From an uncultured Clostridia bacterium (GTDB lineage Bacteria; Bacillota; Clostridia; Christensenellales; UBA1750), in contig CAJFMX010000011.1 of the NCBI GenBank assembly GCA_904393115.1, positions 1 through 64,000 on the forward strand: a stretch of 64,000 nucleotides of DNA, in the 5' to 3' direction. Made by a program: the position numbers and the translations under genes. Under the pieces are notes generated by a model that was given only the letters and a program-made list of their open reading frames with translations, made no database searches and was not told where the DNA came from. This document shows, one piece after another, positions 1 through 50,227 of the stretch (its first letter is position 1; every line of letters starts with the position of its first letter).

Positions 1-1
1 G

Positions 2-892
2 GAATATGAAGCTGACTATTGCAAAGTTTTGAAAGAAAACCGCCCGGAATGGAATGTCATTTGTGCCGATGTCCACGATTTTGATGGGCGTCCATATAGG
101 GGCGTAGATTTACTTGCTGGTGGCGTTCCTTGCCCGCCCTTTTCTGTTGCGGGCAAACAGCTTGGAAAAGATGATGAACGCGACTTGTTCCCGGAAGCGA
201 TCCGGCTTATTGGGGAAATTAAACCAAGAGCTGTCATGTTGGAAAATGTTCGTGGGTTCTTGGACCCTGGGTTTGATGAATACAGAGAGCATATCTTTTC
301 CGAAATCAAGAAACTTGGCTATGTCACTCACATTAAACTGCTCAACGCATCCAATTTTGGAGTTCCGCAGCTGCGGCCAAGAGTTGTGATTGTTGGAGTA
401 CGGAAAGATCAGCTCGGCGCGTTTGCTTATCCCGAAGAAAAGTCGGACAGTGCGCCTACTGTCGGGAAAGTGCTGTACGACTTGATGGCTGAGAATGGAT
501 GGGAAAAAGCCAAGGAATGGGCGGCTCATGCCGATCGGATTGCCCCCACCTTAGTCGGTGGCTCAAAAAAGCATGGCGGGCCTGATCTCGGCCCCACACG
601 AGCCAGGAACGCATGGGCCGAACTCGGAGTTGATGGACGGGGGATTGCCAACGAAGCTCCGTCTGCCGGATTTGAGGGAATGCCCCGTTTGACAAGCCGG
701 ATGATGGCCAGAATTCAGGGGTTTCCGGACACATGGACCTTTGGTAAACGAAAGACTTTGGCTTGCCGCATGATTGGCAACGCTTTTCCACCCCCGGTTG
801 CCCAAGCAGTAGGAGAAAAAATTAAGGAGTGTCTTGAGTATGGATGCGCTGATTGCAAACGCGAGATTCCACTTTCACAAGCAGTTATTTGA
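2..892 (+). CDS. DNA (cytosine-5) methyltransferase, 5' end outside window
   Basis: C5-cytosine DNA methyltransferase, expected to be the protective partner of the endonuclease that follows. The reading frame is open to the first base of the window, so the N-terminal SAM-binding part is missing; the TTG at 29 is only the first possible internal start. Visible family motifs in order are GGVPCPPFS (motif IV, catalytic Cys), MLENVRGF (motif VI), RPRVVIVG (motif VIII) and MIGNAFPPPVAQA (motif X). The end overlaps the next gene by about 50 bases in another frame, which indicates tight co-expression. The target is inferred to be GCCGGC from the neighbouring endonuclease. Base composition is AT-richer than the rest of the window, pointing to transfer. 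Confidence 0.95.
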   Translation, partial: EYEADYCKVLKENRPEWNVICADVHDFDGRPYRGVDLLAGGVPCPPFSVAGKQLGKDDERDLFPEAIRLIGEIKPRAVMLENVRGFLDPGFDEYREHIFSEIKKLGYVTHIKLLNASNFGVPQLRPRVVIVGVRKDQLGAFAYPEEKSDSAPTVGKVLYDLMAENGWEKAKEWAAHADRIAPTLVGGSKKHGGPDLGPTRARNAWAELGVDGRGIANEAPSAGFEGMPRLTSRMMARIQGFPDTWTFGKRKTLACRMIGNAFPPPVAQAVGEKIKECLEYGCADCKREIPLSQAVI

Positions 893-1715
893 AACAAATA
901 CGCTGACTTTAACTTCGGCCGGAGTGGCGTCCAACGCCGATACCAGTAGCCGCAGCTCCAAGGCAATAGCCCGCAGGATTGTTGATATTCTGGTAGATGA
1001 GCAGCATCATGCGGTTTCAATGGTTGATAAGATTTCCGGTCAGACGCTTGGTAAGCAATTTGAGACTTTGACTATGGATTTCTTGCGGGAAACTTTTCCA
1101 AATCTCCAAAACCTTCGCCCTGGGCGCTGGACAATCCTTCAACTCGGCAATAACAATAAGCTGAAAACCAGCGATTTTGCCCAGTATGAGCATCTGGCAT
1201 ACTTGAATGAGCTTACTGCGCAGAACGCTCAGTTGGCTGCTGCATTGGGAAACGATTACTTAGTTGCGCCGGATGTGGTCATCTACCGTGACCTATACGA
1301 AGATAGCGAAATCAATGCTGCCCAGTGTATCGTTGATGGCGATGTTAGCAAAATGGCGGATATTCGCAAGGCAAACGGCGGAAAACCGTTGCTTCACGCC
1401 AGCGTATCTGCCAAGTACACCATGCGGAGTGACCGGGCGCAAAATAGCCGGACTGAGGCTCTGAATTTAATTCGTAACAGGAAGGGACATCTGCCCCACA
1501 TTGTTGTAGTGACAGCGGAGCCGATGCCAAACCGGCTTGCCTCACTTGCTTTAGGAACGGGTGATATTGACTGCGTTTATCACTTTGCCCTTTATGAGCT
1601 GATTCGTGCTGTAAAAGAAGTAGGGTCCGAGGATGCAGCTGAAACTTTGGAAACGCTAGTTCAAGGGAAGCGGTTGAAAGATATTTCCGACCTTCCGCTG
1701 GATTTGGCTGTATAA
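840..1715 (+). CDS. NgoMIV-type type II restriction endonuclease (predicted GCCGGC)
   Basis: Type II restriction endonuclease of the NgoMIV/Cfr10I group, 291 aa (NgoMIV is 286). The active-site residues known for NgoMIV (E70, D140, S185, K187, E201) map at a constant +5 offset to E75, D145, S190, K192 and E206, and the base-reading RSDR segment after the S-x-K motif is present. The C-terminus GKRLKDISDLPLDLAV matches my recollection of NgoMIV. Cleavage at G/CCGGC is therefore predicted. ATG 840 was chosen over TTG 834 because AAGGAG at 824-829 lies 10 bases before ATG but only 4 before TTG. The gene overlaps the methyltransferase at its start, and its stop codon overlaps the vsr start (TAATG). 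Confidence 0.93.
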   Translation: MDALIANARFHFHKQLFETNTLTLTSAGVASNADTSSRSSKAIARRIVDILVDEQHHAVSMVDKISGQTLGKQFETLTMDFLRETFPNLQNLRPGRWTILQLGNNNKLKTSDFAQYEHLAYLNELTAQNAQLAAALGNDYLVAPDVVIYRDLYEDSEINAAQCIVDGDVSKMADIRKANGGKPLLHASVSAKYTMRSDRAQNSRTEALNLIRNRKGHLPHIVVVTAEPMPNRLASLALGTGDIDCVYHFALYELIRAVKEVGSEDAAETLETLVQGKRLKDISDLPLDLAV

Positions 1716-2131
1716 TGGCTGATACGATCTCTTCTGACCGGAGAAGTAAAATCATGTCCCACATAAAGAGCAAGGATACCAGCATTGAGATGATGGTACG
1801 CCGCCGCCTCTTTGCAATGGGATACCGGTACCGGGTCAATTATAAGGCGCTGCCGGGCAAGCCTGATATTGTCTTTACCAAGAAGAGAATAGCCATTTTC
1901 ATTCACGGATGCTACTGGCACGGGCATGACTGTGGAAGCCGGTACGCCCATACGAGTCAGTCAAACAAAACATATTGGGGACCTAAAATAGAGCGAACAA
2001 AGCAACGAGATCAGGAGCATATTCAAGAGCTGGAAGCCAATGGCTGGAAAGTGATTGTACTTTGGGAATGTGAGATTAAAAACCATTTAGAGTTAACAAT
2101 AGCTGATTTAATCGAAAAGATTGAAAATTAA
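1715..2131 (+). CDS. vsr: very short patch repair (Vsr) endonuclease
   Basis: DNA mismatch endonuclease that nicks 5' of the T in T:G mismatches left by deamination of 5-methylcytosine, here presumably protecting the methylated sites of the neighbouring system. At 138 aa it has normal family length. Residues fall at the same numbers as in E. coli Vsr: D51 (LPGKPDIVF), H64 and H69 (IHGCYWHGHDC), and zinc ligands H71 and C73, with a later Cys in LWECE. Its ATG overlaps the endonuclease stop, so the two are translationally coupled. A Vsr beside a C5 methyltransferase is a common arrangement and supports 5mC as the modification. Confidence 0.96.
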   Translation: MADTISSDRRSKIMSHIKSKDTSIEMMVRRRLFAMGYRYRVNYKALPGKPDIVFTKKRIAIFIHGCYWHGHDCGSRYAHTSQSNKTYWGPKIERTKQRDQEHIQELEANGWKVIVLWECEIKNHLELTIADLIEKIEN

Positions 2132-2239
2132 TAATAAATCTGTATAGAAATCTGCCTTTAGCAATAAGCTCTATATTCGTGTCCATAAGAATACCCCTTG
2201 TAGATAATGTGAGATTGGTTCCGAGGTGAAACTACGATA

Positions 2240-4453
2240 ATGATTACATCAATACTAATGAAAAATTGTGCTACATATCCGTCAACGGGGGTATCTATTG
2301 ACAATTGTCAAAAAGTTAATTTCTTCTATGGACCAAACGGAAGTGGTAAATCGACTATTAGTAATTTTTTGAACAACCAAAATGATCCTCAATATTCTTC
2401 TTGTACAGTGCAATGGGAAAACGGCTCTGTACTTGATATTGCGGTATATAATCGGGAGTTTCGCACGCGGCATTTTCAAGAAGATATTGATGGCGTTTTT
2501 ACTTTGGGCGAGGCTACCATTGAAGAAGTGAAAGCCCTTGAAGATTTAAAGCGAGATAGAGAGATAAAGAGTCAAGATTTGGCTGCTCGAAAAGCAGCGC
2601 TTGCTAAAAAAGTAGCGGAAGAGCAGGCGCACAAAGAAAATTTCCGCGATACTGTGTGGAATGTGATCCTTAAGCAGAATGAAACTGACTTTCAAGAAGT
2701 GTTTCGCGGCTTTAGAGGGAACAAAGAAAAGTTTATGAATGAGGTAATTAGGCGCTATAATATTTCTCATTCATCGTCTGAAACAAAAGATGATTTGCGA
2801 AAACGAGCAGCGACCCTTTTTGCAAAACGCCCAGAACGATGTGAATCTTTGTCCCCTCTGTCCGAGAAACTCTTGTCTATGATTGACGCTGTCGAAAATG
2901 ATCCGATTTGGGAAAAAGTAATCGTTGGAAACAAGGATATTCCTATTGCTAACCTTATAGAATTTCTTGGAAATGCAGACTGGGTGAATAAAGGCCGTTC
3001 ATACATTCGAGAAAATGGTGTATGCCCTTTTTGTCAGCAGAAAACAATTTCAGAAGATTTTAGGAAACAGATCGAATCTTTCTTCAGCGGTGAATATGAT
3101 GCTAATATCGAATATATAAGAAAACTAAAGGCAGTATATGAAGAAGCTTCTAAGCAATTGCTAGATTATCTTCAATGTGTAGTTTCAAATGCACTTGCTG
3201 TATCAGTCGGAAATATTGATGTTAAAAGATTTAGTTCTTTGAACGATATTTTACAATCAAAATTTGCAAGCACTCTGGCTTCAATGTCTTTCAAAGAGAA
3301 AGAAGCCGGCACGAAAATAACTATAGCTCGAAGTTCTAGCGAAATAACTGAAATATTATCCATTATTTCAACAGCAAACACGGAAATAGCAAAACATAAT
3401 CAAATGGTTGACCACATAAATGAAGAAAGGTTGGTATTGGTTGATGCTGTTTGGACATTTTTAATGGATGAACAAGAGGCGTTGATTGCTGGCTACTTAG
3501 GCGATATACCCAATTTCAATAAAGCCAAACAGGGAATGCAGAAAGGTATAGATATTTGCAAGCAACAGTTAGATGATCTAGACAACAAGATAATCGAGGC
3601 AGGAAAGAATATCACGAGTGTTCAACCAACTGTCGATGAAATTAATCGTTCCCTTAAGGCTTACGGTTTTACAAATTTTCGGATTGCACCCTCACCAAAT
3701 AAAGAGAATTGCTATCAAATCCAAAGACTAGACGGAACACTTGCAACAACCACGCTCAGTGAAGGAGAAGAAACATTTATAACATTTTTATATTTTCTTC
3801 AACTCGCCAAGGGTTCAGTTGAGGAATCCAAAGTATCAGCAAAGAAAGTTTTGGTTTTAGATGATCCAATTTGTAGTCTTGATAGTACAGTTCTTTACAT
3901 TGTAAGCTCAATGGTAAAATCTCTAATCAAGGAAATCCGAAATGGCATATCGGATGTAGAGCAAATATTTATTCTTACTCATAATGTGTTCTTTCACAAG
4001 GAAGCATCCTTTGTAGATGGACGAACAGCGGAACTCAATGATGTGAATTATTGGATAATAAGTAAAGATAATAACATATCATCTATACGAGCATTCGGAA
4101 AAATCAATCCGATTAAAACATCATACGAGCTTTTATGGCAAGAACTCAAAAACAATGAAAATGCTTCACTTGTAACTACGCAGAATATTATGAGGCGAAT
4201 CATTGAAAACTATTTTAGCATTCTAGGGAAAAATGTTGACGATGCCATTGTTGATTCATTCGATACACCAGAAGATAAAATGATTTGCCGCTCGCTTATA
4301 AGTTGGATAAACGATGGTTCACATTCAATACCGGATGACCTATATATTGACAGCTATACTGATTCTGTTGACCGGTATAAATGTATTTTTCGAGAAATTT
4401 TTATAAGGATGCACCACGAAGCTCATTATAAAATGATGATGGGAGAGCCTTAA
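2240..4453 (+). CDS. AAA_13-type ATPase, candidate RloC-like anticodon nuclease
   Basis: Large ABC/SMC-type ATPase of 737 aa. Seen: Walker A GPNGSGKST at 31-39, coiled-coil-like stretches, a CPFC pair at 262-265 resembling the zinc hook of RloC, an ABC signature LSEGEE near 506-511, Walker B VLVLDD ending at 542, and an H-loop LTHN at about 581. In the C-terminus R652-x3-E656 and H695 (NDGSHS) resemble the Arg-Glu-His triad of PrrC/RloC anticodon nucleases. Length, hook position and C-terminal triad fit RloC better than PrrC, which is about half the size. It starts 108 bases after vsr with its own GAGGTG ribosome site. If the call is right, it would cut tRNA when restriction is disabled. A plain AAA_13 ATPase remains possible. 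Confidence 0.7.
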   Translation: MITSILMKNCATYPSTGVSIDNCQKVNFFYGPNGSGKSTISNFLNNQNDPQYSSCTVQWENGSVLDIAVYNREFRTRHFQEDIDGVFTLGEATIEEVKALEDLKRDREIKSQDLAARKAALAKKVAEEQAHKENFRDTVWNVILKQNETDFQEVFRGFRGNKEKFMNEVIRRYNISHSSSETKDDLRKRAATLFAKRPERCESLSPLSEKLLSMIDAVENDPIWEKVIVGNKDIPIANLIEFLGNADWVNKGRSYIRENGVCPFCQQKTISEDFRKQIESFFSGEYDANIEYIRKLKAVYEEASKQLLDYLQCVVSNALAVSVGNIDVKRFSSLNDILQSKFASTLASMSFKEKEAGTKITIARSSSEITEILSIISTANTEIAKHNQMVDHINEERLVLVDAVWTFLMDEQEALIAGYLGDIPNFNKAKQGMQKGIDICKQQLDDLDNKIIEAGKNITSVQPTVDEINRSLKAYGFTNFRIAPSPNKENCYQIQRLDGTLATTTLSEGEETFITFLYFLQLAKGSVEESKVSAKKVLVLDDPICSLDSTVLYIVSSMVKSLIKEIRNGISDVEQIFILTHNVFFHKEASFVDGRTAELNDVNYWIISKDNNISSIRAFGKINPIKTSYELLWQELKNNENASLVTTQNIMRRIIENYFSILGKNVDDAIVDSFDTPEDKMICRSLISWINDGSHSIPDDLYIDSYTDSVDRYKCIFREIFIRMHHEAHYKMMMGEP

Positions 4454-5069
4454 AATCTTTCGTAGTTCTTGTGATTTATGGCAACACCATGGCAACAAAA
4501 AATCAGATAGCCCAAACTATCTGGATAATGGAAACAATGCAAATACTCTGAGCTAAATCTCATAAGCAAATCCGTTTAGAATATGGCTGACGGGAGCGAG
4601 TGGGAATAATGGCTGAAACGGCTGGAAGCCGCATGATCCCTACATTTTTTGCTGCCTGCATTTGCCCGTGGCAGTATTTTGGCATGAAAATCCGGAAACG
4701 CAAAAGAGCCCTCGGCCACCAGGTCGGGGCTCTTTTTGCTGGACAAATATTTCTACGGCTGTGGAGTCCCGGCGGCAGGGATTGGGCGCACGAGCGGAAA
4801 TACCCTCTGCCGCCTATAGCCAGGCGCCAGTGCATGGGGTTCCTGGTGATCTTTGGGCAAGCGGAGCGAAAAAAAGTTTGAAGAGACCCGAGAGAGCCTC
4901 CCCCCCTGCCGTCTGCAGGCAATACGACGAGGCAAAACCCTATCGCGGCGGAAAATGGGCCCTGTTTTCACCGACCGATGCGACGGAATTGGCGGCGGCC
5001 GAATCGAAAGCCGCCGCTCCGATCGCCCGCGGCGGAATAGTCCGCTTCGCAGAAAGGTCCGCACAGGAA
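4454..5069. other. intergenic boundary of the defence island
   Basis: About 600 bases without a convincing gene. The AT-rich composition of the island gives way to the GC-rich chromosome around 4600-4800. It contains the terminator at 4702-4737. A short open frame on + (4600-4881) runs straight through that terminator hairpin and has no recognisable protein features, so it is not called. No integrase or clear attachment repeat was recognised here; the other island edge lies outside the window. Confidence 0.6.
4702..4737 (+). terminator. intrinsic terminator downstream of the defence island
   Basis: Perfect 9-bp arms AAAGAGCCC (4703-4711) and GGGCTCTTT (4727-4735), with further T residues to 4737. 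It lies about 250 bases beyond the ATPase stop and would end read-through from the island. Confidence 0.8.
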
Positions 5070-49788: not shown

Positions 49789-49864
49789 GGGAGCATAGCT
49801 CAGCTGGGAGAGCACTTGCCTTACAAGCAAGGGGTCACAGGTTCGAGCCCTGTTGTTCCCACCA
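49789..49864 (+). tRNA. tRNA-Val (anticodon TAC)
   Basis: 76 bases with CCA. Acceptor GGGAGCA pairs with TGTTCCC; anticodon loop CTTACAA; T loop TTCGAGC. Confidence 0.97.
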
Positions 49865-49871
49865 AAGAGAT

Positions 49872-49948
49872 GGCGCGGTAGTTCAGTTGGTTAGAATGCC
49901 AGCCTGTCACGCTGGAGGTCGAGGGTTCGAGCCCCTTCCGCGTCGCCA
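49872..49948 (+). tRNA. tRNA-Asp (anticodon GTC)
   Basis: 77 bases with CCA. Acceptor GGCGCGG pairs with CCGCGTC (one G-T); anticodon loop CTGTCAC; T loop TTCGAGC. Confidence 0.97.
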
Positions 49949-49953
49949 TGTAT

Positions 49954-50029
49954 GCCTGGGTAGCTCAGCTGGTAGAGCAGCAGACTGAAAATCTGCGTGT
50001 CGGTGGTTCAACTCCGCCCCTAGGCACCA
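49954..50029 (+). tRNA. tRNA-Phe (anticodon GAA)
   Basis: 76 bases with CCA. Acceptor GCCTGGG pairs with CCTAGGC; anticodon loop CTGAAAA; T loop TTCAACT. Confidence 0.97.
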
Positions 50030-50032
50030 TTT

Positions 50033-50107
50033 GCGGTAGTAGCTCAGTGGTAGAGTGCCACCTTGCCAAGGTGGATGTCGCGGGTCCGAATCCCGTCTAC
50101 CGCTCCA
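50033..50107 (+). tRNA. tRNA-Gly (anticodon GCC), with C at position 55
   Basis: 75 bases with CCA. Acceptor GCGGTAG pairs with CTACCGC; anticodon loop TTGCCAA. The T loop reads TCCGAAT, so the nearly universal U55 (base 50086) is C; the D loop G18-G19 is kept. See findings. Confidence 0.95.
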
Positions 50108-50152
50108 CAAAACTTACGATGCCCATGCTCCACAGCGTGGGCATATAAGTCT

Positions 50153-50227
50153 GGTGCCATAGCCAAGAGGTAAGGCAAAGGTCTGCAAAACCTTCATTCC
50201 CCGGTTCAAATCCGGGTGGCACCTCCA
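50153..50227 (+). tRNA. tRNA-Cys (anticodon GCA)
   Basis: 75 bases with CCA. Acceptor GGTGCCA pairs with TGGCACC; anticodon loop CTGCAAA; T loop TTCAAAT. A small stem-loop (about 50119-50142) separates it from tRNA-Gly. Confidence 0.97.

Follow-up and report, generated by a model that had tools for sequence, protein, structure and literature searches.

RloC proteins, as defined by Davidov and Kaufmann (2008; PMC2610378), have their ABC motifs in common with PrrC, carry a coiled-coil insert with a CX2C sequence, range in length from 658 to 897 amino acids and possess the motif R-X3-E-X36-52-H, in which the histidine is often preceded by serine. GkaRloC and AbaRloC, from Geobacillus kaustophilus and Acinetobacter baylyi, respectively, have been reported to display linear-DNA-dependent ATPase activity, control by the zinc hook and excision of the wobble base (PMC2610378, PMC3874168). 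PrrC is a smaller protein (~340–416 amino acids) that lacks the zinc hook and is encoded inside type I hsd loci. Linkage of RloC genes to restriction–modification (R-M) systems has been reported to be rare (8 of 72 published genes) and, where it occurs, to involve types I or III (PMC2610378; PMC3874168).

Here, we describe an RloC-like gene with a different setting. The window (the whole 64,000-nucleotide stretch of clostridial DNA analysed) begins at the start of its contig, C11, and its first 4.45 kb are occupied by four genes on the same strand (+, as for all window features given below). The first encodes a C5-cytosine DNA methyltransferase (1–892; PF00145, E 2.1e-58) whose 5′ end is cut by the contig start; a complete, 348 amino acid copy of the methyltransferase is found at L027:5607–6653. 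This is followed by an NgoMIV-family type II restriction endonuclease (834–1715; PF09015, E 1.2e-145), the true start of which may lie downstream of 834 as the Pfam match begins near 873, and by a Vsr mismatch endonuclease (1715–2131; PF03852, E 1.4e-31; TIGR00632 above cut-off), the start of which overlaps the endonuclease stop by 1 nt. NgoMIV itself recognizes GCCGGC, and this is the predicted site of the window enzyme. The RloC-like gene (2240–4453) is the last gene of this mobile operon. Such a type II restriction context, which the preliminary description of the gene had missed, is not described in the RloC literature consulted (PMC2610378, PMC3874168). Elsewhere in the window, five ordinary-looking tRNA genes (Val, Asp, Phe, Gly and Cys) are clustered at 49789–50227.

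Reading of the translation shows the RloC-like ORF to be intact and to encode a protein of 737 amino acids. The preliminary description had listed Walker A and B motifs, an ABC signature, a CPFC pair and the residues R652-x3-E656 and H695, and all of these are present where it had placed them. The Walker A motif (GPNGSGKS, residues 31–38; 2330–2353) and the ABC signature (LSEGE, residues 506–510; 3755–3769) are followed by Walker B and the D-loop (residues 536–548, KVLVLDDPICSLD; 3845–3883), in which VLVLDD occupies residues 537–542 and SLD residues 546–548, and by an H-loop histidine, H581. A candidate zinc hook, CPFC (residues 262–265; 3023–3034), lies between predicted long helices. The C-terminal domain (residues 616–737; 4085–4450) is predicted to be all-helical and is a candidate HEPN-type anticodon nuclease; it contains the putative catalytic pair R652-x3-E656 (R652-R-I-I-E656; 4193–4207) and a putative catalytic histidine, H695, within NDGSH (N691–H695; H695 codon 4322–4324). 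The spacing between E656 and H695 is 38 residues and S694 directly precedes the histidine. Thus the length of the protein, its ABC-ATPase motifs including the H-loop, the CX2C coiled-coil insert and the sequence R-X3-E-X38-H all agree with the published RloC motif set, and it is through this motif set that we liken the protein to the Geobacillus and Acinetobacter enzymes, which fall in the same length range and have a split ABC-ATPase, a CX2C insert and a triad with serine.

Conservation was assessed in an alignment of 57 homologues that are 28–69% identical to the window protein. C262, C265, R652, R653 and E656 are invariant (57/57), as are G31, G36 and K37 of Walker A, the LSEGE signature, and D541, D542, S546 and D548. 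H695 is kept in 50 of the 57, distant phyla included, although the conservation of NDGSH is partly ascertained because this sequence was one of the two search patterns used to find genome loci (neither CPFC nor R-x3-E was used in the search). Thirteen genome loci carry NEGSH or NGGSH in its place and must therefore have been retrieved via the other pattern; all 13 retain Ser-His. Whilst a bare R-x3-E…H could occur by chance, conservation of the kind seen in this alignment does not. A second histidine, H729 (HYxMM), is invariant in all 57 aligned proteins and absent from two PrrC orthologues (L222, L223), and its invariance means that the catalytic histidine may be other than H695.

A phage/element-borne subgroup (L136–L150, and L023:4917–7178 from Streptococcus phage Javan105), ~28% identical to the window protein, has CPYC or CPFC and mostly keeps R-x3-E; the NDGSH histidine is lost and H729 retained. 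From their sequences, either these proteins are inactive or their catalytic histidine differs. The Javan105 copy is annotated 'RloC', an annotation we did not take as proof as the protein is 26% identical and is without the catalytic histidine. A scan of viral contigs for close relatives, made with a single protein, found none.

The preliminary description had also set RloC against a general AAA_13 ATPase. This contrast proved to be a false one because AAA_13 (PF13166) matches the whole protein (E 3.6e-165; 552 bits against a gathering cut-off of 36), with positions 1–712 of the 713 in the model being covered. AAA_13 is the family that contains PrrC. The protein also gives a full-length match to PDC-S06 (E 2.6e-249), a PADLOC candidate defence family that is a label without a mechanism, and which is now tied, at the level of motifs, to RloC. 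The PADLOC PrrC model matches over residues 466–731 (E 6.5e-11), whilst the C-terminal fragment matches PDC-S06 only and not the PrrC model. Profile comparison by hhalign, a check that had been suggested for the RloC assignment, gave E 2.7e-22 with a 787 amino acid RloC-like protein and E 3.5e-7 over 204 columns with the PrrC orthologues of L222 and L223, whose genes are flanked by hsdS and hsdR. R652, E656 and H695 fall opposite the arginine, glutamate and histidine of PrrC (R-x3-E and SSH); the score is carried mostly by the ATPase, and on its own the C-terminal domain aligns in that register at E 0.09. PrrC thus resembles the window protein in its ABC motifs and its triad, and differs in size, in the absence of CPFC and in its type I rather than type II context. 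In a genome of the same order as the window, a stop codon divides a PrrC gene (L224; G052:C3:2817–3901) into two frames, and the gene is probably broken.

The structure of the full protein was predicted with AlphaFold2 from 57 sequences (mean pLDDT 84.4, pTM 0.55), revealing long helices at residues 94–147, 285–316, 328–354 and 366–456. The best Foldseek matches in the PDB are Mre11–Rad50 complexes (7zr1, E 3.3e-8) followed by SMC heads, and in the model the head and coiled coil are Rad50-like. The C-terminal 122 residues, modelled separately from 49 sequences, form six helices (pTM 0.74). The loop that carries H695 falls below a pLDDT of 50 in both models (residues 691–705 in the full model, 690–707 in the C-terminal one). 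Foldseek searches of the PDB and BFVD with the C-terminal model gave no significant match; the HEPN-like matches to Csm6′ (8pcw, E 4.5) and to a toxin–antitoxin complex (7bxo, E 6.1) are too weak to count as evidence. Searches of PDB sequences (phmmer and profile searches) found no PrrC or RloC structure and only P-loop/coiled-coil similarity.

That Rad50 is the best structural match raises the question of whether the protein is instead an SbcC-like ATPase for DNA repair or DNA tethering, with a degenerate, non-nuclease C-terminal domain. Rad50 and SbcC share with it the ATPase head, the coiled coil and the Cys-x-x-Cys motif, and some of its relatives adjoin genes for SbcC-like ATPases. Rad50 and SbcC lack a C-terminal R-E-H domain, however, and the triad positions of the window protein are invariant, or nearly so, across distant phyla; moreover, the window operon (methyltransferase, endonuclease, Vsr, RloC) contains no gene for an Mre11/SbcD partner. 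We consider such a non-nuclease role in repair or tethering highly improbable. Another reading keeps the Rad50-like ATPase and a helical C-terminal RNase but has the latter cut a target other than the tRNA anticodon loop, such as mRNA, rRNA or phage RNA. HEPN-type RNases do vary widely in target (PMC3710099), outside the triad the C-terminal domain is weakly similar to PrrC, and the invariant H729 is specific to the clade. Against this, the R-x3-E…SH layout and spacing are those of PrrC and RloC, ABC-fused families for which anticodon activity has been shown (PMC2610378), and a different target appears unlikely. With the N-terminal part Rad50-like and the triad in register with PrrC, the RloC blueprint put forward in the preliminary description is supported: judged on sequence, this is a well-supported and otherwise ordinary RloC-type candidate.

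The operon has moved recently between genera. Window positions 1–4609 are 96.7% identical at the DNA level to L027:5763–10370 from Merdimmobilis hominis, whilst the flanks differ, and the G+C content of the segment is 35–50% compared with ~65% in the host flank. The G+C contrast, the high identity and the unlike flanks together led us to reject vertical inheritance of the operon. In L027 the surroundings of the operon include a relaxase (Mob_Pre), an AAA_25 protein, an integrase and a small HTH protein whose gene overlaps the methyltransferase start. At the right end of the transferred segment, where identity to L027 stops (4609), lies GAGTGGGAATAA (4598–4609), which is like the 3′ end of guaA and is a candidate attachment-site core; zero occurrences of this motif are expected by chance, and the genome's own guaA ends in GAGTGGGAATGA. 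The region of ~155 bp 3′ of the RloC stop codon, which ends in the guaA-like GAGTGGGAATAA, is kept in the window (4454–4609) and at L030:7434–7586 and L035:10217–10370, and is conserved though the upstream R-M genes differ in type. L027 has a second copy, 84% identical and 5 kb away (L027:15637–15760). From its sequence, the region looks to be the terminus of an integrative element whose R-M cargo can be exchanged.

We read the neighbourhoods of the best 80 genome loci encoding relatives, and found that these adjoin almost all types of restriction system, types I, II, IIG, III and IV among them, and do so much more often than expected by chance. Type II enzymes are encoded directly upstream in several: a C5-methyltransferase and NgoBV in L031 (a pair that recurs on the other strand in L061) and Dam-like and AlwI genes in L039, L040 and L091. 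Eco57I-type and IIG enzymes occupy this position in L029, L030, L032, L035, L098, L100 and L105, and type III mod–res genes, with an overlap of 4–8 nt, in L042 and L064. The RloC-like gene lies among type I genes in L043, L049, L057, L066, L099 and L102, adjoins an Mrr gene in L033 and in L036 is located inside a BREX locus, where brxL precedes it by ~1.3 kb and a UvrD/RQC helicase gene follows. Another setting that recurs is one with an SbcC-like SMC ATPase gene directly upstream (L038, L041, L045, L048, L054 (Bacteroidota) and L101 (Sulfurospirillaceae)).

An R-M-like gene is present within 3 kb in 31 of the 80 loci compared with a match anywhere in 18.2 kb in two of 69 control windows, but some of the seeds came from these very loci, a bias in favour of the loci relative to the controls. 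The count was therefore repeated genome-wide with independent Pfam families: in 13 of the 48 genomes searched, a DNA-methylase gene (PF00145 or PF02384) lies within ~8 kb, where 1.24 would be expected (P 7e-11, on an assumption of random placement that allows neither for shared ancestry nor for the tendency of defence genes to cluster). In the window protein's own clade on the tree, 13 of 15 proteins have such a restriction-type neighbour, of many kinds. Partner class requires 11 changes on the whole tree, compared with 19.9 when shuffled, indicating partial inheritance of the partner with repeated exchange.

Taken together, these results make it probable that the window gene, the last of a mobile type II operon, encodes a translation-disabling RNase of the RloC type that probably serves as a second line of defence. 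An ABC-ATPase head resembling that of Rad50, and interrupted by a coiled coil that carries the candidate CPFC zinc hook, is fused to a putative C-terminal R-E-H RNase. By analogy with GkaRloC, AbaRloC and PrrC, the RNase probably cleaves tRNA in the anticodon loop and would be held inactive by the ATPase and zinc hook. On sensing DNA ends, the head would set the RNase free; tRNA would be cut, translation would stop and the phage would be unable to finish. The trigger may be DNA ends or failure of the adjacent restriction system, and beside a type II system this allows two readings, with either restriction fragments or the loss of restriction acting as the trigger.

It is quite possible, however, that the adjacency reflects shared defence islands and mobile elements only and that the protein acts independently of the NgoMIV-type system, a reading that bears on coupling and leaves the RloC identity intact. 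All parts lie on the transferred segment and the type of partner changes among close relatives. In A. baylyi, RloC is activated in R-M-deficient mutants and does not depend on the R-M enzyme that accompanies it (Klaiman 2013, PMC3874168); as the activation in these mutants makes clear, linkage is not function. What argues against adjacency as the whole explanation is the tight, same-strand and often overlapping placement, with gaps of −8 to 150 nt to the upstream type II, IIG and III genes and, elsewhere, a position between hsdS and hsdR. The broader proposal, that RloC-type tRNases form a general and exchangeable second line for type I, II, IIG and III systems and BREX, to which they are coupled in function and not just by genetic linkage, is possible but rather doubtful; for type II systems, the signal for tRNA cleavage would be the DNA ends that the endonuclease generates, or inhibition of the endonuclease by a phage.

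The context of the gene is worth more than the protein itself, in that members of its clade also recur downstream of type II, IIG and III enzymes. A compact type II operon that includes a putative linear-DNA-sensing tRNase provides a test case for whether RloC guards restriction as PrrC guards EcoprrI.
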